The notes under the pieces were generated by a model. It was not told where the DNA came from. It saw nothing but the letters and a program-made list of their open reading frames with translations, and made no database searches. The position numbers and the translations under genes are program-made. DNA of 64,000 bases from Ottowia sp. SB7-C50 (GTDB lineage: Bacteria; Pseudomonadota; Gammaproteobacteria; Burkholderiales; Burkholderiaceae_C), in assembly GCF_033110285.1 (NCBI RefSeq), contig NZ_CP136995.1, positions 3,162,001 through 3,226,000 of the forward strand, in the 5' to 3' direction. This document shows, in pieces, positions 5,660 through 21,713 of this stretch (positions are counted from its first letter, which is position 1; each line of letters opens with the position of its first letter).

Positions 5660-5749
5660 GAATGGCGGGGGTCTGTGACAATGGACCGAGCCCCAGCCAT
5701 CGGACTGGGTTGCCGTGCGCGGCACGATCCTTCACCCAGAGTATCTGTG

Positions 5750-7672
5750 ATGCAAGTTTCGGAAATACAAGCCCTCATGGCCACGCAGCGGGTGTGGGGC
5801 CTGCTGCTCGAGGCCACGCGCCAGCGGCTGGCGCCGCAATGGCAGGCGCGCGACTTTCAGCGCGGCGACATCGTGCTGGCGCAAAGCGAGATGCCCGAGC
5901 GCCTGGGCTGGCTGCTGTCGGGCCAGGTGGCGCTGACCGACCCGGAGGCGGGCTGGAGTTTGCCCTTGCAGCCGGGTGAGCTGTTTGGCGCCGGCGCGCA
6001 GGCCGTCGATGCCACCGAAGCCGTGCACGCCACCGCCCAGGCCAACAGCCAGGTGCTGTTTCTGGATCGCGCCGCGCTGCTGCACGCCGCGCTGGCACAC
6101 CCCGCGCTGTTCATGCTGCTGCCGGCGCTGCCGCGCAATGCGCAGTCACCTGCATTGACCGCCCCCGCGCCATCGGGCAACGTGATGACGGCGCCCATCA
6201 GCCAGTTGGTGCAACGCCCGCCGGTGCAGATCGACCGCGCCGACAGCATCGCCAGCGCCGCGCGCCGCATGGCCGACGAGCGCGTGTCGTCCATCCTGCT
6301 CACACAGGACGACCAGCTGTTCGGCGTGGTCACCGACCGCGACCTGCGCAGCCGTGTGCTGGCCGCCGGCCTGGACCCGGCGCGGCCAGTGGCCGACATC
6401 GCCACGCTGGCGCCGCTGACGCTGCAAAAGAACCAGTCCATCTTCGAGGCCATGGTGCTGATGGCGCGGCAGAACATTCATCACCTGCCGGTGCTGGACG
6501 GCAACCGCGTCCTGGGCATGGTCACGGCGACCGACCTGAACCAGCACCAAAGCACCTCGGCCGTGTTCTTGACGGGCGAGATCTACCGCCAGCCCGACCT
6601 GGCCGGCCTGGTGGCGTGCAGCACGCGCGTGAAGGATCTGCAAAGCAGCCTGGCGCGGGCCGACACCAGCGCGTACAGCACCGGCATCATCATGACCTCG
6701 GTCACCGACGCCTTCACGGTGCGCCTGATCCAGCTGGCCGAGGCCGAGCTGGGCCCGCCGCCCGTGCCCTACGCCTGGGTGGCGGCCGGCTCGCAGGCCC
6801 GCATGGAGCAGACCGCGCGCACCGACCAGGACAACTGCCTGGTGCTGGCCGACGACTATCGTCCAGAGCAGCACGGCGCCTACTTCGAGCAATTCGCGCG
6901 CCGGGTGTGCGATGGGCTCAACGCGTGTGGCTACGTGCACTGCCCCGGCGACATCATGGCCATGACCGAGCGCTGGCGCCAGCCGCGCGCGCAGTGGGAC
7001 GCCTACTTCACCCAATGGACCAAGCGCCCCGACGCCATGGCGCTGATGCTGACCAGCGTCTTCTTCGACGCCCGCGCCGTGCACGGCGACGCCGGGCTGC
7101 TGCACAGCCTGCGCCGCGACATGCTGGCGCGCACCAAGGGCAACGGCCTGTTCCTGACGCACATGGTCGGCAACGCGCTGAAGCAGCGACCCGCGCTGGG
7201 CCTGTTCGGCCAGATCACCGTCAGCCGCGGCGGCGAACACCCCGGCACGGTGGACATGAAGCACAGCGCCATCGTGCCCATCGTCGACCTGGCGCGCATC
7301 TACGCGCTGGCTGGCGGGCTGGACGCCGTCAACACCCACGACCGGCTGGACGTGGCGGCCGAGGGCGGCGAAGTCAGCCCCCAGGCGGCGCGCGACCTGG
7401 CCGACGCGCTGGAGTTCATCAGCGCCCTGCGCATCGCCCACCAGACGCGCCAGATCGCGGCCGGCGAGGCGCCCGACAACTTCCTGCGGCTGGATGAGTT
7501 GTCCAGCTTCGAGCGCGGCACGCTGAAGGACGCCTTTGGCGTGGTGCACCAGCTGCAATCGGTACTGGGGCAGCGGTATTACGGGGGGGCGGGGGTGAGG
7601 GCTCGGCGCTGTTGGAATACCTTTGAACGCAAAGGGCGCAGAGGCTTCGCAAAAATCGCAGAAGTTTTTTGA
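5750..7672 (+). CDS. cNMP-binding-like / CBS / DUF294 nucleotidyltransferase-like signalling protein
   Basis: Predicted 640-aa cytoplasmic signal protein. Residues 1-130 look like a cyclic-nucleotide-binding fold (FQRGDIVLAQSEMPERLGWL). Residues about 150-270 form a CBS pair (VTDRDLRSRVLAAG, VLDGNRVLGMVTATDL). A DUF294/GlnD-like nucleotidyltransferase motif follows (GSQARMEQTARTDQDN) with a helical C-terminal domain. The ATG at 5750 is chosen because the fold begins there; the frame is open further upstream only as the antisense of uvrA. It is divergent from uvrA. A paralogue lies at 19896-21713. The match to the paralogue ends near RYYGG; the last ~25 residues read into a hairpin repeat. Removing one G from the seven-G run at 7583-7589 would end the protein at 7598, close to the paralogue's length. 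The ligand is unknown. Confidence 0.88.
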   Translation: MQVSEIQALMATQRVWGLLLEATRQRLAPQWQARDFQRGDIVLAQSEMPERLGWLLSGQVALTDPEAGWSLPLQPGELFGAGAQAVDATEAVHATAQANSQVLFLDRAALLHAALAHPALFMLLPALPRNAQSPALTAPAPSGNVMTAPISQLVQRPPVQIDRADSIASAARRMADERVSSILLTQDDQLFGVVTDRDLRSRVLAAGLDPARPVADIATLAPLTLQKNQSIFEAMVLMARQNIHHLPVLDGNRVLGMVTATDLNQHQSTSAVFLTGEIYRQPDLAGLVACSTRVKDLQSSLARADTSAYSTGIIMTSVTDAFTVRLIQLAEAELGPPPVPYAWVAAGSQARMEQTARTDQDNCLVLADDYRPEQHGAYFEQFARRVCDGLNACGYVHCPGDIMAMTERWRQPRAQWDAYFTQWTKRPDAMALMLTSVFFDARAVHGDAGLLHSLRRDMLARTKGNGLFLTHMVGNALKQRPALGLFGQITVSRGGEHPGTVDMKHSAIVPIVDLARIYALAGGLDAVNTHDRLDVAAEGGEVSPQAARDLADALEFISALRIAHQTRQIAAGEAPDNFLRLDELSSFERGTLKDAFGVVHQLQSVLGQRYYGGAGVRARRCWNTFERKGRRGFAKIAEVF

Positions 7673-7816: not shown

Positions 7817-9973
7817 TCAATATTTAAGTCTCGCGTAATACGTCTCCCGCGCCGCCTCGCGCGCCTGCGCCAGCGTGACGATGCCCTTCTCGGCCAGCAG
7901 CGGGATCAATTGGAGCAGCACCTCGGCCGTGACCAGCGCGTCGCCCAGCGCGGTGTGGCGACCCAGCACGGCGATGCCGAAGCGCTCGGCGATGGCCTCC
8001 AGCCGGTGCGACGCTTGATGGGGGTGCACCAGTGCCGACAGCAGCAGCGTGTCCAGCACAGGCTGCTGAAAACGCAGGCCGGCGCGGCGCGCAGGCGCCT
8101 GCAAGAACTTCATGTCGAAGGCGGCGTTGTGCGCCACCAGCACCGTGTCCTGCGCGAACTGGTGGAAGGCGGGCAGCACCTCGTCGATGCGCGGCTGGCC
8201 GGCCACCATGTCGGCCGTGATGCCGTGGATGGCGATGCCCGCGGCCGGTATGGCTCGGCCCGGGTCCACCAGTTGCTCGAACGATTCCTGCCGCAGCAGC
8301 TTGCCATTGACGATGCGCGCGGCGCCGATCTGGATGATCTCGTCGCCGCCCGAGGGGTTCAGCCCCGTGGTCTCGGTATCGAACACGGTGTAGACCAAGT
8401 CGCATAAACGGCGTTCGTCGAGCGCGGTGTCGGCGCCAGCGGCGTCGAACAGGTCGAAGTCGAAGAACTCGGGCCGGCTGCCCACCGGATCGGCGCGCTC
8501 ATGCGCCTTTTCAGCGCTGCTGGCCAGCGGCAGCAGAAAGCGGAAGAAGGCCTGGTGCGACGCCCGGTCGCGCTCGAACCACATCTCGGCGTCGTGGCGC
8601 TCGATCACGTCGCGCACCGACAGCGGCAGCGTTTCGCCGCCGCTCTGCATGGGCTCCATTTCCCAACCCATCACGGTTTCGGTGCTCATGGCGTGTCCGG
8701 TCCAGACCAGGTCAAGCTGCGCGCGCGTGCCGTGCGTGGCCAGGCGCAGCATCAGCGCCCGCACGCCGAACTCATCGACCAGGCGCTGCCCCAGATGGGC
8801 CAGCGCCTGCAGCATCGAAAAACTGTCCAGCTTGAGCCACAGGGCCGCATCGACGGCGTCCGCCGCAACCGGCACCCGGCATTGCGTGCCCAGTTGGCGC
8901 ACGGCCACGTCCACGAACTCGGCACCCTGCATTTCCTCCAGCGGCCAGCGCGTGCGCAGGCTGTCGGCCGACTGCCGCGCGACGGCGTCCACGCGCTGCA
9001 CCATGGTGGCGGTCTCGTCGCGCAGCACGGCCAGAAAGCGCTCGCGCATGGCCGGCTCCAGGTCGTCGTAGCCCAGCATCTCCACCGCGGCGCGCAGGCT
9101 GGCCAGCGACGCGCGACTGCCCTCGGTCAGGCCGTGCAGCAGCCGCACGCGCGCGCTTTCTTCTTCGAAGCTGCGCGTGATGTTGTCCAGCATCAGCACG
9201 AAGCCGTCCAGCGCGGTGGCGCCGTCGCCCGGCTCGGTCACGGGCGCCACCTGCACGCGCAGCAGCTGGCCGCCGCGCGTGCCGGTGACGAACTGCGCCG
9301 ACGGCTGCGCGGCGCCGCGCGCCAGCCGCTGCTGGATGCTGTCCAGCGCGTGCGCCACCAGCTGCTGGTCGAACACGGCGTAGATGGAGCGGCCGATGCC
9401 GATCAGTTCGGCCCCGTCGGCCAGCTGTGGCGCATCCGACAGGGCGCGGAACTGCAGGCGCGCCCGCGAGTTGTACAGCAGGATGCGGCCATCGCGGTTG
9501 CACACCACCACGCTTTGCGTCAGCTCGGCCATCAGCGCGGCCAGGCGGTTGCGCTCCAGCCGCAGGCTGGCGTTGGCGCGCATCACTTCGGCGGTGACAT
9601 CGCCGCGCAGGGCATCGCGCTGCGCCGCCAGGGCGTTGATGGCGTCGGCCAGCGGCTGCTGGCCGGCCTGCCCGCGCGCCTGGATCTGCAAGGGCTGGCT
9701 CGCGGCCACGATGGCGCGCGTCTGCTCGGCCAGTTCGGGCAGCGCGACCACGCGCGGCAGCCACCAGCGGCGCAGCGCCAGCATCGCCAGCACCGCGGCG
9801 AACATCCAGGCGGCCGCCAGCAGCACGGCGCGCGAGGCCAGCCAGTGTGCAAACTGAGCGCGCCCGAGCGCGTCGAGCGAGATGTAGACCAAGCCCAGCG
9901 CCAGCGCCAGCCACGCGGCGAGCGCCAGCGCGATCCAGGCCAGCGGTTGGCGCAGCAGGCGTGCATCTCTCAA
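7817..9973 (-). CDS. Membrane-anchored degenerate histidine-kinase scaffold fused to a DEDDh 3'-5' exonuclease
   Basis: About 718 aa. The N-terminus has two membrane segments (about residues 10-35 and 45-70) and a PAS-like region (NRDGRILLYNSRARLQF). A helical stretch follows that resembles a kinase dimerisation domain (LLHGLTEGSRASLASLRAAVEML), where the usual SHELRTPL histidine motif is absent, then an ATPase-like region with no clear N or G boxes. Residues about 525-700 are a full DnaQ-type exonuclease: FDTETTG (Exo I), HNAAFD (Exo II), HTALGDALVTAE (Exo III). I chose the TTG at 9973, which overlaps the receiver's TGA; no ATG exists in this frame before the first membrane segment. It ends an operon of symporter-kinase, receiver and this gene. 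Exonuclease fold is sure; signalling role is inferred, and it may act on RNA or signal nucleotides rather than in replication. Confidence 0.85.
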   Translation of the reverse strand: MRDARLLRQPLAWIALALAAWLALALGLVYISLDALGRAQFAHWLASRAVLLAAAWMFAAVLAMLALRRWWLPRVVALPELAEQTRAIVAASQPLQIQARGQAGQQPLADAINALAAQRDALRGDVTAEVMRANASLRLERNRLAALMAELTQSVVVCNRDGRILLYNSRARLQFRALSDAPQLADGAELIGIGRSIYAVFDQQLVAHALDSIQQRLARGAAQPSAQFVTGTRGGQLLRVQVAPVTEPGDGATALDGFVLMLDNITRSFEEESARVRLLHGLTEGSRASLASLRAAVEMLGYDDLEPAMRERFLAVLRDETATMVQRVDAVARQSADSLRTRWPLEEMQGAEFVDVAVRQLGTQCRVPVAADAVDAALWLKLDSFSMLQALAHLGQRLVDEFGVRALMLRLATHGTRAQLDLVWTGHAMSTETVMGWEMEPMQSGGETLPLSVRDVIERHDAEMWFERDRASHQAFFRFLLPLASSAEKAHERADPVGSRPEFFDFDLFDAAGADTALDERRLCDLVYTVFDTETTGLNPSGGDEIIQIGAARIVNGKLLRQESFEQLVDPGRAIPAAGIAIHGITADMVAGQPRIDEVLPAFHQFAQDTVLVAHNAAFDMKFLQAPARRAGLRFQQPVLDTLLLSALVHPHQASHRLEAIAERFGIAVLGRHTALGDALVTAEVLLQLIPLLAEKGIVTLAQAREAARETYYARLKY

Positions 9974-10344
9974 GCCGCGCCCTCCAGCATCTCGGCCACT
10001 TTCTGCACCAGTTCGCGGGTTGAAAACGGCTTGATCATGTAGGCGTTGGCGCCCAGCGCCAGGCCCTTGCTGATGTCGGTGTCGCGCCCCTTGGCAGTCA
10101 GCATCAGGATGCGCACGCCGGCCAGGGCCGGGTCGGCGCGCACCGCCTGGCAGACCTCGAAGCCGGTCTTGCCCGGCATCATCACGTCCAGCAACACCAG
10201 TGCAGGCTGCTCGCGCTGGATGGTCTCCAGCGCCTGGTCGCCGTCGGTGGCCACCAGCACCTCGTAGCCTTCGCGCTTCATCAGGTATTCGAGCGAGATG
10301 ACGATGTTGGGCTCGTCGTCGGCCACCAGCAGTTTGTGCGTCAT
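9970..10344 (-). CDS. CheY-like single-domain response regulator
   Basis: A 124-aa receiver domain with no output domain. Conserved residues are visible: acidic pair D10/E11 (VADDEPN), phospho-acceptor D53 (LLDVMMPG), T83 (MLTAKG) and K105 (MIKPF). The start overlaps the stop of the symporter-kinase gene by 4 bases and the end overlaps the exonuclease-fusion start, so all three are translationally coupled. The kinase upstream is its likely phosphodonor. Having no DNA-binding domain, it probably acts by protein contact; the adjacent degenerate kinase/exonuclease is the obvious candidate partner (inference). Confidence 0.93.
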   Translation of the reverse strand: MTHKLLVADDEPNIVISLEYLMKREGYEVLVATDGDQALETIQREQPALVLLDVMMPGKTGFEVCQAVRADPALAGVRILMLTAKGRDTDISKGLALGANAYMIKPFSTRELVQKVAEMLEGAA

Positions 10345-13115
10345 GTCGGCTCCCCGTTCCCCGCCTGCTGCGCCAGCAGCGGCAGGCTGAAATGAAAGGT
10401 GGCGCCCTGCCCCAGGCGCGAGCGCACACCGATGCGGCCTCCGTAGTGTTCCACGATCTGGCGGCTGATGGGCAGGCCCAGGCCCGTGCCCTGGCGGCGC
10501 TCGCGCGGATCGCCCACCTGGCGGAACTTGTCGAAGGCGGCGCGCTGGTCGTCGTCCGACACGCCGGGGCCGTTGTCGGTCACCGACACCGTCAGTTCAT
10601 CCTTGCCCACCTGCAGCACCAACTGCACCCTTCCTGCCTGCGGGGGCACGAACTTGACCGCGTTGGCCAGCAGGTTGAGCATGACCTGCTGCAGCTTGTC
10701 GGGATCAGCGCACACGATGGGCGCCGGCCGCGCGTCCGGCGCGGGCAGCGTCAGCTCGATGGCGCAACCGTGCTCGCGCAGCAGTTCGCGCGTGACCTCC
10801 ACGGCCTGCAACACCAGCGCCCGCATGTCCACCGGGGCGTCGTGCCATTCGGCGCGGCCGGCTTCGATCTTGGCCAGATCGAGCACCTGGTTGACCAGGC
10901 GCGAGAGGCGCTCGGCCTCGGCCACCACGATGGCGATGAAAGGCTGGCGCTGCTCGGGCGGCATCTGTGGATCGTCCAGCATCATCTCGGCCAGCGCGCG
11001 GATCGAGGTGAGCGGCGTGCGCAACTCGTGCGTCACGGACGACATGAACTCGTCCTTCAGCACGTCCAGGCCCTTGAGCTGCTCGTTGGCCTCGCGCAGG
11101 CGCGCGGTGGCTTCTTCGAGCGAGCGTGACTTGTCCTCCAGCGCGCGCGAGTAGGCGCGCAGTTGCGAGGCTTCTTCCAGCATGCTGAGCACGTCTTCGG
11201 TGGTCAGCGATTCTTCCTTCGACACGGAAGACACCAGCACGCGTGCCGATGCGCCGCCCACGGCGCCCGCCAGCTTGGTTTCGATGAAGCTCACGAAGCG
11301 GGCGTCGGCCACGCTGGCCGCAGTCGCGCCCCAGCGCGCGGCGTACTCGTCGAACATGGCCTGCGCGCGCTCGGCGCCAAAGAAGCGCACACACAGCTGG
11401 CGCAGGTCTTCCACGCGCGCCTCGCCGCGCCAGAATACGGGCGTGGTGCCACCACTGACTCGGCCCGCATTCACGAACATCAGCGCCTGGCTGGTTTCGC
11501 GCGCCGACGGCTCGCGCGCCAGCGACAGCGCCACGTACACCGACACGTTGAGCAGCAGGCTCCAGAACAGGGAGTGCGTCAGCGCGTCGAGCCCGGTGAG
11601 ACCGAACAGCGCCTCGGGCTTGAGCCACGCCACGCCGCCCGGCCCTTCCTGCACGAAGGCGTCGCCCATCCAGCCCGACTTGGCAATGGAAGGCAGCATC
11701 AGCGTGTAGACCCAGATGCCAAAGCCCGCCATCAGCCCGCCCAGGGCGCCCAGTCGCGTGCCAGCGCGCCAGTACATGCCGATCAGCGCCGCCGGCGCGA
11801 ACTGCGCCACGGCAGCAAAGCTGATCAGGCCGATGCTGACCAGCGCGTACGCTTCGCTGGCGACGTGGAAATACGCGTAGCCCAGCAACAGCAGCAGCAG
11901 GATGGTGATGCGCCGGATGTTCAGCAGGATGCGCGTCAGGTCGGGCAACCCATCGCCCAGCGCGGTGCGCCAGCGCAGCAGCAGGGGCAGCACCAGTTCG
12001 TTGCTGACCATGATGGAGATGGCGATGCTTTCCACGATCACCATGCCCGTGGCCGCCGACAGGCCGCCCACGAAAACAAACAGCGCCAGCGCCTGCTGCC
12101 CCGCCGCCAGCGGCAGCGACAGCACGAAGTTGTCGGGATGGGTGGCCTGGCCGCCAAAGTACAGCAGCCCGCCCAACGCGATGGGCAGCACGAAGATGTT
12201 GATGGCCAGCAGGTAGGCCGGAAACACCCAGCTGGCGCGGCGCAGGTGGTCTTCGTGCACGTTCTCGACCACCATGATCTGGAACTGGCGCGGCAGCATC
12301 ACCACCGCCAGCATGGCCAGCACCGTCATGGTGAACCATTGCGGCCAGGCAAAGGCCGTGCCCTGCTCCAGCCGCAGCAGCGCGCGCAACTCAGGCTGCG
12401 CCTGCGCGCGCGCAAAGATGTCGGTAAAACCGTCGTACAGCCCGTAGGTGACGAACACGCCCACGGCGAGAAAGGCCACCAGCTTGACCAGCGACTCGAA
12501 GGCGATGGCCGCCACCATGCCCTCGTGGCGTTCCGTCGTATCCAGATGGCGGGCGCCGAAGATCATGGTGAAGCCAGCCAGCACCAGCGCGAGGTAGAAG
12601 GTGCCATCGCGGCTCCACGGCACCTGGGTCGTGCTCTCGGCCACGCCGGGCGAGGTCAGCAAGCCATAGGCGGCCGACACGCCCTTCAGCTGCAAGGCGA
12701 TGTACGGCACCACGCCGACGATGGCGATCAGCGTCACGCTCACGGCCAGCAGGCGGCTCTTGCCATAGCGGCTGGCGATGAAGTCGGCAATCGAGGTGAT
12801 GCGTTGTACCTTGGCAATGCGCACGATCTTGCGCAGCACCAGCCAGCCCAGCACCATGGCCATGGTGGGCCCCAGGTAGATCGGCAGGAACCACAGGCCG
12901 CCGCTGGCGGCGCGGCCCACGCTGCCGAAATAGGTCCACGCCGTGCAGTACACGCCCAGCGACAGCGCATAGGTCCAGGGGCTGCTGATGAGCGAAAGGC
13001 CGCGCGCCGCGCGCCGGTCGCCGGCGTACGCAATGACGAACAGCAGGGCCAGGTAGCCCAGCGACACCGCCAGGACCAGCGCCGTGCTCATGGCTTGGAC
13101 CGGTGGCGCCAGCAT
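10341..13115 (-). CDS. Sodium:solute symporter-histidine kinase fusion (CbrA/CrbS-like)
   Basis: 924 aa. Residues 1 to about 520 form a multi-spanning SSS (SLC5-type) transporter domain. A linker and coiled segment (LEEATARLREANEQLKGLD) lead to a histidine kinase with THELRTPLTSIRALAE (phospho-His near residue 696), N box NLLANAVKF, G1 DNGPGVS and G2 GTGLGLPIS. No PAS domain is evident. Known relatives (CbrA, CrbS/MxtR) sense or transport carbon compounds and control histidine or acetate use, usually with a DNA-binding regulator; here the partner is a bare receiver. The ATG at 13115 starts 3 bases after the stop of the small upstream gene; ATG 13091 is an alternative. Neither has a clear ribosome site, so coupling is likely. 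Confidence 0.93.
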   Translation of the reverse strand: MLAPPVQAMSTALVLAVSLGYLALLFVIAYAGDRRAARGLSLISSPWTYALSLGVYCTAWTYFGSVGRAASGGLWFLPIYLGPTMAMVLGWLVLRKIVRIAKVQRITSIADFIASRYGKSRLLAVSVTLIAIVGVVPYIALQLKGVSAAYGLLTSPGVAESTTQVPWSRDGTFYLALVLAGFTMIFGARHLDTTERHEGMVAAIAFESLVKLVAFLAVGVFVTYGLYDGFTDIFARAQAQPELRALLRLEQGTAFAWPQWFTMTVLAMLAVVMLPRQFQIMVVENVHEDHLRRASWVFPAYLLAINIFVLPIALGGLLYFGGQATHPDNFVLSLPLAAGQQALALFVFVGGLSAATGMVIVESIAISIMVSNELVLPLLLRWRTALGDGLPDLTRILLNIRRITILLLLLLGYAYFHVASEAYALVSIGLISFAAVAQFAPAALIGMYWRAGTRLGALGGLMAGFGIWVYTLMLPSIAKSGWMGDAFVQEGPGGVAWLKPEALFGLTGLDALTHSLFWSLLLNVSVYVALSLAREPSARETSQALMFVNAGRVSGGTTPVFWRGEARVEDLRQLCVRFFGAERAQAMFDEYAARWGATAASVADARFVSFIETKLAGAVGGASARVLVSSVSKEESLTTEDVLSMLEEASQLRAYSRALEDKSRSLEEATARLREANEQLKGLDVLKDEFMSSVTHELRTPLTSIRALAEMMLDDPQMPPEQRQPFIAIVVAEAERLSRLVNQVLDLAKIEAGRAEWHDAPVDMRALVLQAVEVTRELLREHGCAIELTLPAPDARPAPIVCADPDKLQQVMLNLLANAVKFVPPQAGRVQLVLQVGKDELTVSVTDNGPGVSDDDQRAAFDKFRQVGDPRERRQGTGLGLPISRQIVEHYGGRIGVRSRLGQGATFHFSLPLLAQQAGNGEPT

Positions 13116-13118
13116 GGC

Positions 13119-13370
13119 TCAGGGGTCCGGCGGCAGCTGGCGCCGCGCGTCGTCGGCCGACGCCTCGGCGGCGCCATCAACGCGCCATTCCATCAACACC
13201 GCCAGCGCCACGATCAGCAGGCCCCAGATCACGAAGGCCGCCGTCGGCAACAGGGGCCAGCCCAGCAGGAATTCGCCCTTGTCCCAGATGCTGAAGAGCG
13301 GAAAGTTCAGCAGCAACCAGCCCAGCGCGAACAGGCCGAGCAGCCGTTCCGTGAGCTTGATTTTTCCCAT
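13119..13370 (-). CDS. Small membrane protein upstream of the symporter-kinase
   Basis: 83 aa, unrecognised. Two hydrophobic segments (LLGLFALGWLLLNFPLF and a second around AAFVIWGLLIVALAVLM) suggest a two-span inner-membrane protein with a short polar tail. The start at 13370 is supported by AGGAGG seven bases upstream. The stop is three bases before the symporter-kinase start, so it is probably an accessory subunit or simply co-expressed. Its size and position recall the small partners (DUF485, DUF4212) of other SSS symporters in this window, although the sequence is not obviously of either family. Confidence 0.7.
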   Translation of the reverse strand: MGKIKLTERLLGLFALGWLLLNFPLFSIWDKGEFLLGWPLLPTAAFVIWGLLIVALAVLMEWRVDGAAEASADDARRQLPPDP

Positions 13371-13414: not shown

Positions 13415-13918
13415 TCAGTGGCAGGCTTTCTGAAAAACCGGATGGTCTGCACTGATTTTCTGTACCGGCCCCGATACCTTGCCCTGCTGGCGGTCGAAGG
13501 GGACGCGCTCCAGCGTCTGGCAATTCAGTACGAAGGCCTGCGTGTCCAGCCCTTCGATCGGGTCCTGGCGAAAGGTGTATTCAAAATACTCCACCAGGCG
13601 CTGCCCGTCCTGCGGGCGAATTGAAAATTGGCCGTCCAGCACCGTAAAGGCGCTGACCGACGGATAGGCGTAGCTCCAGGGCCGAAAGAAAGAGGTTTTT
13701 CTATGCTCCTGGACCACGGTGCTGCCCTTGGGCAGCTGAGTTTGCTTGAATTCGTACCAGTGGTAGTCGTAATAGGCCAGATACCCGAGCATGCCGGCGG
13801 CGGCAAACACCGGAATCAGCCACTTGGGCAGTTTTTGGCGCGTCAGCCTTCGGAGGGCATAAGCCAACGCCCCCATGCACAAGCCCATGATGAATACGGC
13901 CAGAAGGTGCCAGATCAT
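13415..13918 (-). CDS. Hypothetical membrane-anchored protein
   Basis: 167 aa, not recognised. Two N-terminal hydrophobic stretches (LLAVFIMGLCMGALAYAL; WLIPVFAAAGMLGYLAYY) are followed by a soluble domain of about 110 residues (WYEFKQTQ ... SVSAFTVLDGQF ... DTQAFVLNCQTLERVPFDRQQG), probably periplasmic. It is less GC-rich than its neighbours. It is transcribed in the same direction as the symporter-kinase operon, 44 bases upstream of the next small gene's start. No catalytic motif is visible. Confidence 0.65.
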   Translation of the reverse strand: MIWHLLAVFIMGLCMGALAYALRRLTRQKLPKWLIPVFAAAGMLGYLAYYDYHWYEFKQTQLPKGSTVVQEHRKTSFFRPWSYAYPSVSAFTVLDGQFSIRPQDGQRLVEYFEYTFRQDPIEGLDTQAFVLNCQTLERVPFDRQQGKVSGPVQKISADHPVFQKACH

Positions 13919-14000: not shown

Positions 14001-15743
14001 TCACGGGTAACGCACGCGGCGCACCATGGCCCGCACCTCTTCACTGGGCCGCTCGGTCGCGTTGGACACGACGAGCGAAGTGATGATGTTGATCATCGCC
14101 CCGATGCACCCCACCGACAGCGGCGAGATGCCCAATACCCAATGCTCGGGCGTATTCGGGAACGAGTTGGTGCCAGGAATGAAGAACCAGCCCAGATACA
14201 GGAAGATATAGACCACGGTGAATAAGCCGCCGGCAATCATTCCTGCGATGGCCCCCTTGGCATTGATGCGGTCGACGAAGATCCCCAGCACCAGGGCCGG
14301 GAATATCGTCGCCGCCGCCATGCCAAAGGCCAGCGCCACCGTCTGGGCCGCAAAGCCTGGTGGATTAAGCCCCAGCCAGGTCGCGATGATGATGGCCCCC
14401 ACCATCGCTATGCGGGCGTTGAGCAGTTCCTGCTTCTCCGTCAGGTGGGGCATCAAGGTGTTCTTCAGCAGGTCGTGACTGACCGCCGAAGAAATCGCCA
14501 TGAGCAGCCCGGACGCCGTGGACAGCGCCGCGGCAATGCCGCCCGCCGCCATCAGGCCGATCAACCAGCCCGGCATGTTGGCCACCTCGGGCAGCGCCAG
14601 CACCAGGATGTCGTTGTTCACCGTCAATTCGTTGCCCTGCCAGGTCTTCGCCCATTCGGCCTTCTCGGTGAAATCCTTGGCGGCACCGTTGTAGAATTGG
14701 ACATATCCGTCCTTGTTCTTGTCCTCGAACTTGAGCAGGCCGGTGTGTTCCCAGTTCTTGACCCATTCCGGTCGATCGTCGTACTTCAGCGGCGCTGCGC
14801 GCGTGCCTTCGGGATAGAACGTCTCCAGCAGGTTCAGGCGCGACATGGCAGCCAGCGCCGGCACGGTGGTGTAGAACAGCGCGATGAACACCAGCGCCCA
14901 CGCCGCGGACCAGCGTGCGTCCTGGATGTTGGGCACGGTGAAGAAGCGGATGATGACGTGGGGCAGACCGGCGGTGCCCACCATCAGCGTGAGCGTGAAC
15001 AGGAACATGTTCCACTTGTTGCTGACATCCGCGGTGTAGTCCTGGAAGCCCAGGTCGCGCACCACCTGGTTCAGTTTCTGCAGCAATGGCTCGCCCGAGG
15101 CGAGGTGCTGACCGAACAGGCCCGATTGCGGCAGGACGTGCCCCGTCATCATCACCGACAGGTAGGCCGCCGGAATGGTGAAGGCGAGGATCAGCACGAT
15201 GTACTGCGCCACCTGGGTGTAGGTGACGCCCTTCATGCCGCCCAGCACCGCATACACGAACACCACGAAGGCCGAGATCAGCAGACCCGTGCTGCTGGAC
15301 ACCTCCAGAAAGCGCGCGAACGCGACGCCCGCGCCCGTCATCTGCCCAATCACGTAAGTCAGCGAAATGATCACCAGGCAGAGCACCGCCACCACGCGCG
15401 CGCCCTTGCTGGCATATCGCTTGCCCACGAAATCGGGCACCGTGTAGGCACCGAACCGACGCAGGTACGGCGCCAGCAGGGTGGCCAGCAGCACGTAGCC
15501 ACCCGTCCACCCCATGATGAACGATGAGTTGACGTAACCCACCGAAATCAGGCCTGCGACGGAGATGAAGGACGCCGCCGACAGCCAGTCCGCTGCCGTG
15601 GCCATGCCGTTGACCACGGGGTTGACTTCACCACCGGCGATATAAAACTCGCGCGTGGTTCGTGCGCGGGCCCAGATCGCAATCCAGGTGTAGATGATGA
15701 AGGAGCCGATGACGAAAATGAAGTTGATCCAGAATTGACTCAT
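14001..15743 (-). CDS. Sodium:solute symporter, DUF4212-associated (VC_2705-type) subfamily
   Basis: 580-aa SSS-family permease (IAGGEVNPVVNGMATAADWLSAASFISVAG is the typical family segment; longest motif is split across TM2). It has many hydrophobic spans and ends VRRVRYP. The large soluble insertion near residues 310-380 (YPEGTRAAPLKYDDRPEW ... DGYVQFYNG) is typical of this subfamily, which is always paired with a DUF4212 protein; that partner is immediately upstream (15746-16009, 2-base gap). Substrate is probably a short organic acid such as acetate, lactate or pyruvate (inference from family). A strong terminator follows. The gene is distinct from the ActP-type symporter at 17179. Confidence 0.93.
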   Translation of the reverse strand: MSQFWINFIFVIGSFIIYTWIAIWARARTTREFYIAGGEVNPVVNGMATAADWLSAASFISVAGLISVGYVNSSFIMGWTGGYVLLATLLAPYLRRFGAYTVPDFVGKRYASKGARVVAVLCLVIISLTYVIGQMTGAGVAFARFLEVSSSTGLLISAFVVFVYAVLGGMKGVTYTQVAQYIVLILAFTIPAAYLSVMMTGHVLPQSGLFGQHLASGEPLLQKLNQVVRDLGFQDYTADVSNKWNMFLFTLTLMVGTAGLPHVIIRFFTVPNIQDARWSAAWALVFIALFYTTVPALAAMSRLNLLETFYPEGTRAAPLKYDDRPEWVKNWEHTGLLKFEDKNKDGYVQFYNGAAKDFTEKAEWAKTWQGNELTVNNDILVLALPEVANMPGWLIGLMAAGGIAAALSTASGLLMAISSAVSHDLLKNTLMPHLTEKQELLNARIAMVGAIIIATWLGLNPPGFAAQTVALAFGMAAATIFPALVLGIFVDRINAKGAIAGMIAGGLFTVVYIFLYLGWFFIPGTNSFPNTPEHWVLGISPLSVGCIGAMINIITSLVVSNATERPSEEVRAMVRRVRYP

Positions 15744-16423: not shown

Positions 16424-16591
16424 TCACTGGCGCAGGAACCAGAAGCCCGGCGAATCGTCGGCCGGCTTGCGGTGGTTGAGCGCGCTGGCGACCGCACGGC
16501 CGCCATCCCTGTGCATCACGCGATGCGAGCGCAGCAGGCCGAGCATCGCGTACCCGTATGGGCCCGCCTGACGGTAAGCATGTGCTGTCAT
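16424..16591 (-). CDS. Candidate 55-aa small protein
   Basis: This frame begins with ATG 16591, preceded by GGAGA about nine bases upstream, and encodes MTAHAYRQAGPYGYAMLGLL followed by a basic, Gly/Ala-containing tail ending GFWFLRQ. Codon usage looks like the surrounding genes. It is upstream of and codirectional with the DUF4212 operon, 414 bases away. No family is recognised. It may be a real small protein or a chance frame in GC-rich DNA. Confidence 0.4.
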   Translation of the reverse strand: MTAHAYRQAGPYGYAMLGLLRSHRVMHRDGGRAVASALNHRKPADDSPGFWFLRQ

Positions 16592-16873
16592 GGCACTTGT
16601 CTCCAGTGTCGTTTAGTCCTTGTTCTGGACCACTGTAGAAACCGGGCTTGCGCAAGACTTACAACGAATGGCTGCGCCCTGAAAACCAAGGGCAATCACC
16701 TACCCCAAGCGCCTGGCGGGCGAATTGGAGGCGTTTTTATCGCGGCCGCATATGAAACAAAGTGGGTCTTACGTAAGGAGTTGGTCAGACCGGCTTCACA
16801 GAATCAGTTCAGCAGTGCGGGCGTCGTTCGCGCTGGGCAACAAGACCCGTCAACCCTTACGAGGAGACAAAGC
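16592..16873. promoter_or_regulatory. Divergent regulatory region for the DUF4212 and DUF485-ActP operons
   Basis: About 280 bases separate a minus-strand unit from the plus-strand DUF485-actP operon. The region is AT-richer than its flanks and contains the palindrome CTTACGTAAG near 16770-16780. The ribosome site GAGGAGACAAAGC precedes ATG 16874. I cannot assign -35/-10 boxes with confidence. Confidence 0.45.
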
Positions 16874-17182
16874 ATGACCGATCCCGTGGTCGAACGGATT
16901 CAGCGTGATCCGAAGTACCAGAAGCTCACCAGCACGCGCAACAAGTTCGGATGGACGCTGGCCATCCTGATGCTGGTCGTTTATTACGGCTACATCGCGC
17001 TGATCGCCTTCGACAAGGAATTCCTTGCCAGGCCCATGGGCGCCGGCGTGACCACCATCGGCATTCCGATCGGCATGGCCGTCATCGTCTTCACCATCAT
17101 CATCACCGGCATCTACGTGCGGCGCGCCAACAGCGAGTTTGATGCACTGACGCGCGAAATCCTCAAGGACGCCACCAAATGA
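16874..17182 (+). CDS. yjcH: DUF485 (YjcH-like) small membrane protein
   Basis: 102 aa with two membrane spans ([39 protein letters not shown]). DUF485 proteins are the small partners of ActP-type acetate permeases. The start at 16874 is chosen from a good GAGGAG ribosome site and the family start ([17 protein letters not shown]). Its stop overlaps the next start (ATGA), showing tight coupling to actP. Confidence 0.94.
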
Positions 17183-18903
17183 AAGCCCTTACCAAGATTT
17201 TCCTGACCGGTGCCGCGCTGACCGCGGGTGCCGCCTACGCCGCCGGTGGCGATGTGGGCCAGGCCGCCAAGCAGTCCACCAACTGGACGGCCATCATCAT
17301 GTTCACGGCCTTCGTCGTGCTCACGCTGTGGATCACCAAGTGGGCCGCAGGCCGCACCAAGTCGGCGGCCGACTTCTACACCGCCGGCGGCGGCATCACG
17401 GGCTTCCAGAACGGCCTGGCCATTGCGGGCGACTACATGTCGGCGGCCTCATTCCTGGGCATTTCGGCGGCCGTGATGGCCACCGGCTATGACGGCCTGA
17501 TCTACTCCATCGGCTTCCTGGTCGGCTGGCCCATCCTCACCTTCCTGCTGGCCGAGCGCCTGCGCAACCTGGGCAAGTTCACCTTCGCCGACGTGGCCGG
17601 CTACCGCTTCCAGCAGACGCCGATCCGCGCCTTTGCCGCCAGCGGCACGCTGGTGGTGGTGGCGTTCTACCTGATCGCGCAGATGGTCGGCGCCGGCCAG
17701 CTCATCAAGCTGCTGTTCGGCCTGGACTACTGGGTCGCCGTGGTGCTGGTGGGCGCACTGATGATGATCTACGTGCTGTTCGGCGGCATGACGGCCACCA
17801 CCTGGGTGCAGATCATCAAGGCCGTGATGCTGCTGTCGGGCGTGACCTTCATGGGGTTCATGGTCATGGCCAAGTACGGCTTCAGCCCCGAAGCGCTGTT
17901 CGCCGAAGGCGTGAAGGTGCGCACGCAGCTCGCCGCCAACACCGGCAAGACGCCGGAAGAAGCCGCCAAGCTGGGCCTGTCCATCATGGGCCCGGGCGGT
18001 TTCATCAAGGACCCGATCTCCGCCATCTCCTTCGGCATGGCGCTGATGTTCGGCACGCTGGGCCTGCCGCACATCCTGATGCGCTTCTTCACCGTGCCTG
18101 ATGCGAAAGAGGCGCGCAAGAGCGTGTTCTGGGCCACCACCTGGATCGGCTACTTCTACATCCTGATCTTCATCATCGGCTTCGGCGCCATCACCCTGGT
18201 GCTGACGAACCCCGAGTTCGCCGACACGACCAAAGGCGTGATCCACGGCGGCGCCGGCACGGCCAACATGGCGGCGGTGCTGGTGGCCAAGGCGGTGGGC
18301 GGCAACGTGTTCTACGGCTTCATCTCGGCCGTGGCCTTCGCCACCATCCTGGCGGTGGTCGCCGGCCTGACGCTGTCGGGCGCCTCGGCCGTGTCGCACG
18401 ACCTGTACGCCACGGTGTTCAAGAAGGGCAAGGCTGACAGCGCCAGCGAACTGAAGGTTTCTCGCATCACCACGTTGTGCCTGGGCGTCATCGCCGTGGC
18501 CCTGGGCATCCTGTTCGAGAAGCAGAACATCGCGTTCATGGTGTCGCTGGCGTTCGCCATCGCGGCGTCGGCCAACTTCCCGGTGCTGCTGCTGTCGGTG
18601 CTGTGGAAGGATTGCACCACCAAGGGCGCGGTCATCGGCGGCTTCATGGGCCTGATCTCGTCGGTGGCGCTGACCATCGTGTCGCCGTCGGTGTGGGAAG
18701 CCACGTTCGGCAACCCGAAGGGTTCGGCACTGTTCCCCTACACCTCGCCGGCGCTGTTCTCCATGACCATCGGCTTCGTGGGCATCTGGCTGTTCTCGAT
18801 CCTCGACAAGAGCAAGAACGCCGAAGCCGAGCGCGCCGCCTACCCGGCACAGCGCGTGCGCTCCGAAACCGGCTTCGGTGCCGCCAAGGCCTCGTCGCAC
18901 TGA
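17179..18903 (+). CDS. actP: Cation/acetate symporter ActP
   Basis: 574-aa SSS-family permease with a cleavable-looking N-terminus ([12 protein letters not shown]), then the ActP core ([27 protein letters not shown]) and many spans to [10 protein letters not shown]. ActP takes up acetate and other short monocarboxylates with Na+ or H+. It follows DUF485 with a 4-base overlap, matching the yjcH-actP order of enterobacteria, though no acs gene is present. A terminator follows. Nearby on the opposite strand are a DnaQ-type exonuclease and a DUF294/CBS protein, an association also seen around the other symporter genes in this window. Confidence 0.95.
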
Positions 18904-18952
18904 GGGCGTTGATTCCCTGAGACAACAAGAAGAACGCCAAGAAGAAGACAGA

Positions 18953-19008
18953 CGCGAAGCCCACGGGCTTCGCCCTTACAAAAACCGGGCCCTGTGCCCG
19001 GTTTTTTC
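18953..19008 (+). terminator. Terminator after actP
   Basis: The hairpin GCGAAGCCC-AC-GGGCTTCGC at 18953-18972 is followed by ACCGGGCCC-TGT-GCCCGGTTTTTTC at 18986-19008. The second is a classic intrinsic terminator. Confidence 0.88.
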
Positions 19009-19140
19009 ATGGGGCAAGCGCAGGCGCGAAAAAGGGCAGGTCCACCGCGGCGAACCCGCGCCGGTACTCAGTCAAAAGGGTCTTTCGCGCTTATTCAACG
19101 CGATTTGTTTGCTACAAAATGCGCAGCAAAAACCACGAAG

Positions 19141-19776
19141 TCAAGCCTGCAGCTGCTTGAGCTTGATGAAGGCCAGCGCGGCCATCATGGCGTCATTCAG
19201 TGCGTCGTGGGCGTCGCGCACGGGCAGGCCCAGGTCGGCCATGATGGTGGCAAAGCGCAGGTCGATGTCGACGTTGCCCTGCTGGTGCGAGGGCGGCAGT
19301 TGCCTGAACTTGTAGTCGTGGTAGAGCGCCGATACCTCGATCTTGGGCTGCGGCAACCCAATGCCGATGAGCGGCTTGACCGCGCGGTTCAGCATGGCGA
19401 CGTCGAATTCCAGGTAATAGCCCACCAGCGGACGCGCGCCGATGAAATGCAGCAGGCGGCGCATGGCCTCGGGCGCCGGCAGGCCGCCCTGCACGTCCTG
19501 CACGCGCAGCCGGTGCACGCGAATGCTCTCGGCCGACACGCCTTTTTCAGGCCGCACCAGAAATTCGAGCCGCTCGCTGCTCATGATGCGCTGGCCGCGG
19601 ATCTTCACTGCGCCGACGGAAATGATTTCGTCGGTGCGCGTGTTCAGGCCGGTGGTTTCGCAGTCCAGCGACACCCATTCGTTGGGCGGCGGCGGCTCGA
19701 ACAGAAAACTCCACTCGGGGTCCTTCAAAAGCCGCTGCTGCCAGCCTGAGCGCAATCGATCGATCAGTCCAGCCAT
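19141..19776 (-). CDS. Stand-alone DEDDh 3'-5' exonuclease (DnaQ-like)
   Basis: 211 aa. The exonuclease motifs are intact: SLDCETTG (Exo I Asp/Glu), YYLEFDVAML (Exo II Asp) and HDALNDAMMAAL (Exo III His/Asp). A short N-terminal helix (MAGLIDRLRSGWQQRLLKDP) precedes the domain and marks the start at 19776; the frame is open further upstream only as an antisense of the DUF294 gene. It is much shorter than typical replicative epsilon subunits and lacks their C-terminal polymerase-binding tail, so a role in signalling or RNA turnover is as likely as proofreading. It is downstream of and codirectional with the DUF294/CBS gene. Similar nuclease/DUF294/ActP neighbours are, as I recall, also found in pseudomonads. 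Confidence 0.88.
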   Translation of the reverse strand: MAGLIDRLRSGWQQRLLKDPEWSFLFEPPPPNEWVSLDCETTGLNTRTDEIISVGAVKIRGQRIMSSERLEFLVRPEKGVSAESIRVHRLRVQDVQGGLPAPEAMRRLLHFIGARPLVGYYLEFDVAMLNRAVKPLIGIGLPQPKIEVSALYHDYKFRQLPPSHQQGNVDIDLRFATIMADLGLPVRDAHDALNDAMMAALAFIKLKQLQA

Positions 19777-19895
19777 GCCGTCCTCGCATACCGCGTGAAG
19801 AGAGCCCGTTGAACCCCGCCCACCCGCTGAGCGGGCTGGGCCCGGCCACGGGGTGCGCCTTCCGGGGGGGAGGCGCCGAAGGCGCTGCGGGCGGG

Positions 19896-21713
19896 TCACA
19901 GGTTGCCCAGCTTGAACCGGTGCCGCAGCTGCACCTTGAAGCGCTTGACCACGCCCAGCGCGTCCTTGAGCAGGTCGCGGTCCAGCGATGACAGTTGCGG
20001 CACATCGACCGCACCCGACACGGGCTGGCCCTTGTCCATTTCGGACAGGGCCGCCTTGAGCTTGAGGCCCATGAAGAAGTGCAGCGCGTCGGTCAGTTCC
20101 TTGCCCATCTCGGGGCTGAGCGCGTGCGCCGACACCAGCGCGGCGATGCGTTCGGCCGTGCCGGTGTTGGGCAGGCGGTGCGCCAGCGCCAGGCTGCGCA
20201 CGCCGTGCACCAGCGGGAAGATGCCTTCCTTCTTCAGGTTCATGCGGTTGTCGGCGTCGCCCAGCAGGCGGTTCCACCAGCCGGTGGTGTTGCCGAAGGC
20301 GTCGATGGCGGCGGCGAAGCGGGCCAGCATGCCGTCGTTGTCGGTGGCCAGTTCGGTCAGGCTGGCGCGCACGTCGTCCAGCAGGCGCGCATCGCCGCTC
20401 ACGGCGTGGGCGTCCATGAAGATGGCCAGGTTCATCAGGCTGTCGCCATCGGGCTGCACCAGCCACTGGCGCGCCGTCTGGCTGAATTCGGTGACCGTCT
20501 TGCGCCACGCCGGGTTGCTGAGCATGATGCGGCCGGGGCATTCGGGGTAGCCAAAGCGCGCCAGCGCGTCCGAAAAGCGCTGGCAGATGTCGGCCAGGTC
20601 GTCCGGCGGCACATAGCCGTCGCGCAGGATCAGCCCGTTGTCCTGGTCGGTCTTCAGCAGCTGCTCGCCACGCCCTTCGCTGCCCATGACGAACAGGCAG
20701 CTGTTGGCCACCAGTTCCTCGGGCGCGATGAGGTGCCAGGCGCGGTCAAACAGGCGCGCGTTCAGATCGCGCACCAGCTGCGCGATCAGCGGCACGCGCG
20801 TGCCCGACCGGTACTGCCGGGCGATCATGCCGGTGATCTGGCCGGCGGCTTTTTCCAGTTCGTCGATGTGCGCGGCGCCGTTGATCTGCATGGTGATCAG
20901 CAGCGAGTGGTTCGACAGGAAGCTGAACACGTCCAGCGCTTCCAGCACGCCCAGCACGTGGTCGCCGTCGGCCACCACCACGCGGTGGATGTGGTGCCGC
21001 AGCATGGTGGCCAGGGCGTCGCCCACCTGGTCGGACGGCCGCACGCTGATGAGCGACCAGGCCGCCAGGTCGCCCACCGGCAGCTTGTCCAGCGGACGGC
21101 CGGACAGGATGGCGCGCTGCAGCGCATTGGTGGTGAACATGCCCAGGCGCGGCGGCTGGCTTTGCGCGTCGCGCACCAGCACGTTGGTGGTGTGCTCTTT
21201 CTGGAACACCTTGACGACCGAGACGATGTCGGTCGTCGCGTCCACGATGTGCGCGGGCCGCACGAAGGCCTCGTCCACGCGCGACAGGTTGAGCGACTGC
21301 AGCTCGTTGCCGGTCTGCAGGTCGCTCATGGCGCTCAGCTTGGCGCCCAGGTCAGAGAACAGCAGCGCGCCGAACGTGGCATTGGCGGCGATCAGGTCGT
21401 TCACCGCCTGGCGGGCCAGTTCGTAAGTGACCACTTCCTCGCTGGCGACGAACCGGCTGGACGCCTTGCCCGCCACCAGGCCGCGGCCGTCGAAGCAGTC
21501 GTCGGGGCCGTAGATGGCCACCACCTCGTCGCCGTCCAGCTGCGTGACCTGCCCCTTGATCAGCACGAACAGGTCGGTCGGCGTGTCGCCCACGTCCAGG
21601 ATGACGGCGTCGCGCGGGAAATACGCCACGTCCACGCTGGCCTGCACCAGGCGCTGCTGCTCCTGGGTCAGGCAATCAAAGGGCGAAGCAGAAAAATTGA
21701 AGGCGTTGGGCAT
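19896..21713 (-). CDS. cNMP-binding-like / CBS / DUF294 nucleotidyltransferase-like protein (second copy)
   Basis: 605 aa with the same architecture as the protein at 5750. There is an N-terminal cNMP-binding-like region (LVQASVDVAYFPRDAVILDVGD), a CBS pair (PPRLGMFTTNALQRAI; VVVADGDHVLGVLEALDV), the nucleotidyltransferase motif GSEGRGEQLLKTDQDNGLIL with Gly-Ser and two Asp, and a helical C-terminal domain ending RHRFKLGNL. DUF294 proteins resemble GlnD uridylyltransferases but targets are mostly unknown. It is followed 119 bases later by the exonuclease gene on the same strand, and the two probably form an operon beside actP. Start at 21713 is supported by the fold; ribosome site is weak. 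Confidence 0.92.
   Translation of the reverse strand: MPNAFNFSASPFDCLTQEQQRLVQASVDVAYFPRDAVILDVGDTPTDLFVLIKGQVTQLDGDEVVAIYGPDDCFDGRGLVAGKASSRFVASEEVVTYELARQAVNDLIAANATFGALLFSDLGAKLSAMSDLQTGNELQSLNLSRVDEAFVRPAHIVDATTDIVSVVKVFQKEHTTNVLVRDAQSQPPRLGMFTTNALQRAILSGRPLDKLPVGDLAAWSLISVRPSDQVGDALATMLRHHIHRVVVADGDHVLGVLEALDVFSFLSNHSLLITMQINGAAHIDELEKAAGQITGMIARQYRSGTRVPLIAQLVRDLNARLFDRAWHLIAPEELVANSCLFVMGSEGRGEQLLKTDQDNGLILRDGYVPPDDLADICQRFSDALARFGYPECPGRIMLSNPAWRKTVTEFSQTARQWLVQPDGDSLMNLAIFMDAHAVSGDARLLDDVRASLTELATDNDGMLARFAAAIDAFGNTTGWWNRLLGDADNRMNLKKEGIFPLVHGVRSLALAHRLPNTGTAERIAALVSAHALSPEMGKELTDALHFFMGLKLKAALSEMDKGQPVSGAVDVPQLSSLDRDLLKDALGVVKRFKVQLRHRFKLGNL

Follow-up and report, generated by a model that had tools for sequence, protein, structure and literature searches.

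A pseudokinase-exonuclease fusion behind a stand-alone receiver in an Ottowia operon, and a proposed two-component route to a nuclease

A link between the kinase family discussed here and a DEDDh exonuclease is already in print, and it runs through transcription (available text of PMC9927547). In Pseudomonas putida, PP_0354 and the exonuclease gene PP_0353 form one operon, and ErdR binds the PP_0354 promoter; according to the same portion of that paper, deletion of PP_0353 impaired growth on pyruvate, while deletion of PP_0354 had no effect on growth on succinate, acetate or pyruvate. The latter counts against a strict nucleotidyltransferase-exonuclease link. Another described system that resembles the present locus is DivL, a pseudokinase that senses the single-domain receiver DivK (PMC5361649, in the part available). 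A literature search of partial coverage returned no two-component system in which a receiver-reading pseudokinase makes a nuclease the direct effector, and no paper on the fusion protein described below. The first-pass annotation of this DNA had stated that no such pathway was known to it; within that search this stood for direct control of a nuclease, but not for the link between the kinase family and a DEDDh enzyme, which the P. putida work provides. The window analysed here is a stretch of 64,000 nucleotides from Ottowia sp. SB7-C50.

Gene organisation and domain content of the locus

Three genes on the minus strand form the core of the locus, with no intervening gene: an SLC5-type histidine kinase gene (10341..13115), a stand-alone receiver gene (9970..10344) and a fusion gene (7817..9973) whose 718-aa product joins two transmembrane segments, a PAS domain, a pseudo-histidine kinase and a DEDDh exonuclease. 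Neighbouring genes of the trio share overlaps of 4 bp each, the TTG start of the fusion overlapping the receiver stop. Upstream of the kinase, a small protein of 83 aa with two hydrophobic stretches (13119..13370, minus strand) occupies a place that it also holds in many other loci. It is followed by a 167-aa ORF (13415..13918, minus strand), which lies between the symporter and kinase genes and for which no Pfam or NCBIfam match was found; weak relatives of this ORF adjoin VC_2705-type symporters elsewhere, e.g. in L135 and L143. Further upstream and in the same direction lies a VC_2705-family sodium:solute symporter (14001..15743, minus strand; TIGR03648, 769.9 bits). On the other side, a cNMP-CBS-DUF294 nucleotidyltransferase gene (5735..7672, plus strand; start codon uncertain) is convergent with the fusion.

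Residues 10-478 of the kinase match the solved 'histidine kinase' 10ed (2.2e-70), and HisKA and HATPase_c domains are also present, so that the gene product joins an SLC5 symporter domain to a kinase, as in SLC5/STAC kinases; Pfam SSF was not among its domain matches. Its H696, N and G boxes are intact, and the His, N, D-G-G and G-box residues of the HisKA/HATPase active site are kept in 82 of 82 kinases. After the symporter part there is a conserved stretch, RF.G...A, which recalls the LGPx(x)A motif of STAC given in the available part of PMC4834066; no STAC profile match was obtained, and the match to 10ed does not extend past residue 478. The kinase stops after the HATPase domain with no receiver fused at its C-terminus, and the MxtR/ErdR-type arrangement, with a receiver on the kinase C-terminus and a LuxR-type partner, was not found within the operon. 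The receiver has nothing beyond the receiver domain in its 124 aa, and its phospho-acceptor D53 and K105 are kept in 94 of 94 aligned receivers.

The fusion begins with a membrane part (residues 8-75, 9749..9952; this and the following segments are all on the minus strand), in which hydropathy marks two segments, 11-29 and 49-67, that are helices in the model. A PAS domain (residues 150-265, 9179..9526) is suggested by a PAS_4 match below cut-off and by the alpha/beta pattern in the AF2 model. It is followed by a DHp-like helical hairpin (residues 266-336, 8966..9178), a CA (HATPase-like) domain without N box and G boxes (residues 344-485, 8519..8944), a conserved linker around SRPEFFDFDLF (residues 499-510, 8444..8479) and the DEDDh exonuclease domain (residues 526-717, 7823..8398) with D532, E534, D620, H673 and D678. 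In a profile-profile alignment (hhalign, probability 97.8), E284 (9122..9124) was aligned on H696 of the neighbouring kinase, the phospho-His place, and R287 on a conserved Arg of that kinase. Position 284 in 72 aligned fusions is E in 53, D in 14, G in 2, Q in 2 and L in 1 (Glu or Asp in 67 of 72), and His in none, nor did His occur at the acceptor site in a wider set of 114 fusions. The protein thus lacks the phospho-His, N box and G boxes of a true histidine kinase. The D-E-D-D-H residues within its RNase_T fold, which mark a DEDDh exonuclease, are invariant in the 72 aligned fusions and in 114/114 of the wider set, and linker residues R500, P501, E502, D505, F506 and L508 are likewise invariant in the 72 aligned rows. 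AlphaFold/Foldseek comparison, made with a separate model of residues 128-515 since the whole-model alignment spanned residues 516-709 only, supports a kinase-like fold and the reading of this core as a pseudokinase. The pTM of the whole model was 0.39, and the arrangement of the domains is therefore not predicted.

These results agree with the first-pass annotation, which had described three overlapping genes, a symporter-histidine kinase, a CheY-like receiver without output, and a kinase-like core that lacks the phospho-His motif and carries an intact DnaQ-type active site; the kinase-like fold, which it had named as a check, was recovered.

That the fusion might be a broken or chance ORF was rejected, as the frame reaches the conserved C-terminus in 80/80 named loci, some of which end at contig ends. 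Separately, two interrupted copies were observed in the same genus. In Ottowia testudinis (L008 / L147, G014, P0003) the frame breaks off about where the exonuclease domain begins, and the stretch showed no linked DUF294 gene of the first type; in G003 (L013 / L148) several interruptions are spread throughout the operon, fusion included.

Spread of the fusion and its gene company

When residues 1-525 served as query of a protein search, 6157 of the 7997 candidates scored were matches. Among the matches listed, 119 of 120 carry RNase_T, own protein counted, the exception being the truncated O. testudinis protein P0003. The front part was detected by profile in 13 of 200 genomes in the census of the order and in 44 of 398 in that of the phylum, both counts including the Ottowia genome itself. 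Of 583 confirmed stretches, the best 80 serve as the named loci, and by record title most of these come from Burkholderiales and Rhodocyclales; to these we added loci from all 12 other matching genomes of the order census and from 22 of 43 of the phylum census, picked for spread. The set, in which near-copies such as L052 and L138 were both retained, comprised 118 loci, of which L168 (no exonuclease match) and L068, L069, L073 and L112 (<700 bp upstream) were dropped. The interrupted fusions L147 and L148 stand outside the counts, with the receiver present in both. Neighbours were mapped with tblastn of the window proteins, by which a kinase needs >44% identity, so that more distant kinases escape the mapping.

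In 93 of the 113 loci with enough flank, the gene directly upstream of the fusion on its strand is the receiver, and the co-occurrence that the annotation had put forward as a check is thereby confirmed; 58 of these 93 loci offer a possible start codon of the fusion that overlaps the stop of the receiver gene by 4 bp. Thauera linaloolentis and Azonexus hydrophilus are among the relatives with the operon. Within the 68 long-flank loci (>4.5 kb up and 3.5 kb down), the kinase was found in 54 (48 upstream of the fusion), all with the receiver, a DUF294 nucleotidyltransferase in 55, and a symporter of VC_2705 or ActP type in 48. The annotation had taken the nuclease for the only visible output, but it is not the only visible partner, the DUF294 nucleotidyltransferase being a frequent neighbour. 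Close kinship alone was rejected as the reason for this co-occurrence, since receiver and fusion remain neighbours at ~50% identity and even at 22-29% N-terminal identity, the level of a deeper group in which the kinase, if linked, is downstream. In the tree, the Colwellia and Wenzhouxiangella copies (L104, L105, L110, L095, L100) nest among Burkholderiales sequences of one clade, a placement suggestive of horizontal transfer of a kinase-receiver-fusion cassette. The small protein, kinase, receiver and fusion are present in the three Colwellia loci, with no nucleotidyltransferase or symporter match there.

Several Rhodocyclales loci have one or two DUF294 genes after the fusion in the same direction; in L086, a short DUF294 gene without CBS/cNMP (12081-13145) directly follows the fusion and precedes a full-length one. 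Of the 13 long-flank loci without a linked nucleotidyltransferase, 10 genomes were searched, and a DUF294 match was found elsewhere in 9, the remaining one being a Colwellia genome with no match. Our own genome has three DUF294 matches, two of them in the window; the third is weak (25.8 bits, in a 957-aa frame) and is probably GlnD-like. DUF294_C has been grouped with GlnD-type C-terminal domains (available part of PMC3710099), and protein nucleotidylation has been predicted for a Pseudomonas homologue (available part of PMC5715377). The nucleotidyltransferase partner suggests a target shared with the exonuclease.

The second DUF294 gene of the window belongs to a second set of genes, with a DUF485 protein and an ActP-type symporter (within 16472-21713, plus strand), a cNMP-CBS-DUF294 nucleotidyltransferase (19896-21713, minus strand) and a separate PRK09145-type DEDDh exonuclease (19141-19797, minus strand). 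One window thus holds two DEDDh types, each beside DUF294 genes. The DUF294 gene and exonuclease of the second set resemble the PP_0354-PP_0353 pair, and PP_0353 may correspond to the PRK09145-type copy at 19141-19797.

Divergence of the DHp-like hairpin in fusions without a receiver

The DHp domain provides the helices on which a receiver docks, and the 20 of 113 loci in which the adjacent receiver is absent can be used as natural knock-outs. With identities taken against the nearest receiver-bearing relative, the median DHp/PAS identity ratio was 0.55 in the 20, compared with 0.87 in 40 matched controls (p 7.5e-7), the controls being the receiver-bearing rows, out of 94, with exonuclease identity 0.45-0.85. 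The CA domain in the same comparison gave 0.88 vs 0.92 (p 0.07).

Genome searches divided the 20 further. In 11 of the genomes there was no such kinase at E 1e-60, and receivers were distant only (best E 7.9e-21 to 1.8e-25). Another 3 genomes, all from one distant clade, keep a kinase of 41-42% identity that is accompanied by its own receiver. For the remaining 6 fusions (four from Accumulibacter, and those of G065 and G117) a receiver of 55-67% identity is encoded elsewhere in the genome; in the four Accumulibacter genomes and G065 a second fusion adjoins kinase and receiver, and only G117 is a true split. The four Accumulibacter genomes each hold two copies of the fusion (L203-L206; L090, L093, L111, L114), one behind kinase and receiver and one unlinked.

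The 11 and the 3 together make a receiver-less set of 14 fusions, several of them from genomes without stated completeness; fusions of Comamonas denitrificans (L097) and Tibeticola sediminis (L115) are among those without a receiver. When DHp identity was regressed on PAS and exonuclease divergence, all 14 ranked 0-1 of 94, with residuals of -0.10 to -0.36, while the 6 fusions with a receiver elsewhere were all normal (rank 34-86 against the 94 receiver-bearing rows). The CA domain of the 14 moved in the same direction, more weakly (rank 6-61 of 94, 9/14 at <=10, residuals to -0.10). Median identities to the nearest receiver-bearing row were 0.58 for PAS, 0.29 for DHp, 0.49 for CA and 0.79 for the exonuclease in the 14 receiver-less fusions, against 0.80, 0.76, 0.80 and 0.90 in receiver-bearing ones. 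The lower PAS and CA identities mean that the receiver-less lineages are more diverged overall, and the DHp result rests on the divergence correction. A general speeding-up as the cause of DHp decay was rejected by the PAS and exonuclease correction and by the CA control, in which CA was slightly affected.

On a FastTree tree built without DHp columns, receiver state changed at least 6 times, and 6/6 independent pairs were concordant (sign test p 0.031; FastTree gave long-branch warnings) with a cut of -0.10 that was chosen after the residuals were seen. The receiver-bearing L064 (-0.105), which overlaps the weakest receiver-less fusion, L097 (-0.103), was scored as low.

The distant clade is the only one to separate the loss of kinase from that of receiver, all other receiver-less lineages having lost both together. 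Its three genomes (G434/G531/G462) keep an SLC5-type kinase (41-42%) and that kinase's own receiver, and genome checks did not find the fusion-side receiver in them, while in the sisters G497 and G600 both kinase-side and fusion-side receivers are present. The kinase-adjacent receiver of the three is 57-64% identical to the sisters' kinase-side receiver and 41-47% to their fusion-side one; the assignment of the clade depends on taking 39-44% receivers as the kinase's own; the kinase of G434, one of the three, has an internal stop. DHp length is 36-47 residues in these genomes vs 68-74 in 100 rows outside the receiver-less set. With the kinase kept, the fusion receiver lost and the DHp shortened, the DHp follows the fusion's own receiver and not the kinase. 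In L208-L210, L213 and L214 a single pathway thus has, or once had, two single-domain receivers that are paralogues.

Both the PAS part and an intact DEDDh nuclease persist in receiver-less fusions. Since the nuclease is kept without the receiver, the receiver would be a modulator and not a requirement, and the nuclease would have a basal job independent of it.

Proposed pathway, alternatives and known systems

The interaction of receiver and fusion, on which the annotation had also made its reading depend, has indirect support in the decay of the DHp helices upon receiver loss. The docking helices are kept where a receiver exists, although phosphotransfer from them is impossible; as an enzyme is attached to this pseudokinase, direct control of the nuclease is the simplest reading. 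We propose that the SLC5-type kinase, probably sensing small-carboxylate supply, phosphorylates the single-domain receiver, which would not relay the signal to DNA and would instead dock on the DHp-like helices of the membrane-anchored pseudokinase. Having lost its phospho-His and ATP-site motifs, the pseudokinase would serve to sense the receiver, and docking together with the PAS domain would alter the activity or access of the predicted DEDDh 3'-5' exonuclease. Its target may be RNA, DNA or a nucleotide-modified target linked to carboxylate use, and it would probably act together with the DUF294 nucleotidyltransferase. The neighbouring genes, and in P. putida the growth defect of the PP_0353 deletion on pyruvate, point to small-carboxylate use. 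The receiver probably docks on the pseudokinase and so controls the nuclease, much as DivK acts on DivL. We put the probability of the whole kinase-receiver-pseudokinase-exonuclease explanation, with the signal bypassing DNA, at about 0.64. A more specific version, which we consider doubtful, would make the receiver, the pseudokinase-exonuclease and the DUF294 enzyme a membrane writer/eraser pair, in which the nucleotidyltransferase, responding to cNMP/CBS ligands, would attach nucleotides to a transporter, an enzyme or an RNA 3' end and the receiver-switched exonuclease would take them off again. If so, a two-component system would end in nucleotide modification, not in transcription.

The evidence from receiver loss bears on two other explanations. 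The DHp of the fusion could be kept for heterodimers with the neighbouring kinase, the fusion being a kinase accessory and the receiver incidental. A profile of the fusion's DHp-CA part found only the fusion itself and the neighbouring kinase in our own genome (9.9e-7; E up to 10, 14 candidates scored), and the joint loss of kinase and receiver in every receiver-less lineage but one would also be expected from such heterodimers; the match pattern also fits descent from, or mimicry of, the kinase's receiver-docking surface. The exceptional lineage, however, is the distant clade described above, in which the DHp is shortened with a kinase still present, and receiver-fusion adjacency holds in 5 enough-flank loci without a kinase in the locus; a kinase match lay elsewhere in all 6 genomes intended, that of G484 covering only residues 13-659 and probably belonging to another kinase. 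We regard heterodimers as an unlikely explanation. The preferential decay of DHp upon receiver loss, together with the uninterrupted order of kinase, receiver and fusion in the window, also speaks against a receiver that signals to a DNA-binding regulator or is a phosphate sink, with the fusion merely co-transcribed and the nuclease controlled by PAS alone. Such onward signalling would agree with the characterised SLC5/STAC systems, which use DNA-binding regulators (available parts of PMC9100948 and PMC5715377), with the PAS part being kept without the receiver, and with opposite-strand OmpR-type regulators near some loci (10 matches in our own genome at E 1e-20), and we hold it to be quite improbable. 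The OmpR-type regulator of L157 (Response_reg and Trans_reg_C, 12055-12726) lies between the DUF294 and symporter genes, and opposite-strand receiver matches occur also in L082 and L158-L160.

The fusion could also be an ordinary repair or replication exonuclease, like DNA polymerase III epsilon, with a redox- or metabolite-sensing front end. Its exonuclease fold is nearest to PolC, DinG and epsilon, and some members are named 'DNA polymerase III subunit epsilon' in the source. It scores, however, 113.2 bits against the curated cut-off of 222.7 of dnaQ_proteo (NCBIfam), outside DNA polymerase III epsilon, it has membrane segments and the company of transporter, kinase and nucleotidyltransferase genes, and, the fusion and the copy near 19 kb aside, RNase_T is matched three more times in the genome. 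We consider this explanation very unlikely.

The family is spread over the phylum, under names such as DNA polymerase III epsilon that mislead. The pathway proposed for it would add to DivK-DivL a further testable example in which signalling runs in reverse, from receiver to pseudokinase, and here the output is an enzyme open to assay. It may also explain the company of DUF294 nucleotidyltransferases and DEDDh exonucleases near acetate/pyruvate-type symporters.

Compared with known systems, the locus shares with MxtR/ErdR (CrbS/CrbR) an SLC5-type kinase, the company of ActP in some species, and a cNMP/CBS/nucleotidyltransferase protein (PP_0354) paired with an RNase_T exonuclease (PP_0353). 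There, ErdR makes the link by transcription and the exonuclease is a protein by itself; in the present operon it shares one chain with a pseudokinase and is encoded behind a stand-alone receiver. CbrA, CrbS and RpuS likewise have a symporter domain fused to a kinase; in the present locus the kinase is without a receiver and its partner is a receiver without output. PolC, DnaQ and DinG exonucleases share the fold and the five catalytic residues with the fusion, which differs in being membrane anchored and pseudokinase-fused, without a polymerase or helicase part. In architecture the fusion is like DivL of Caulobacter: it has a kinase fold, a lost acceptor and an adjacent single-domain receiver. 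DivL relays its signal to the kinase CckA, whereas the pseudokinase of the window carries its own nuclease.
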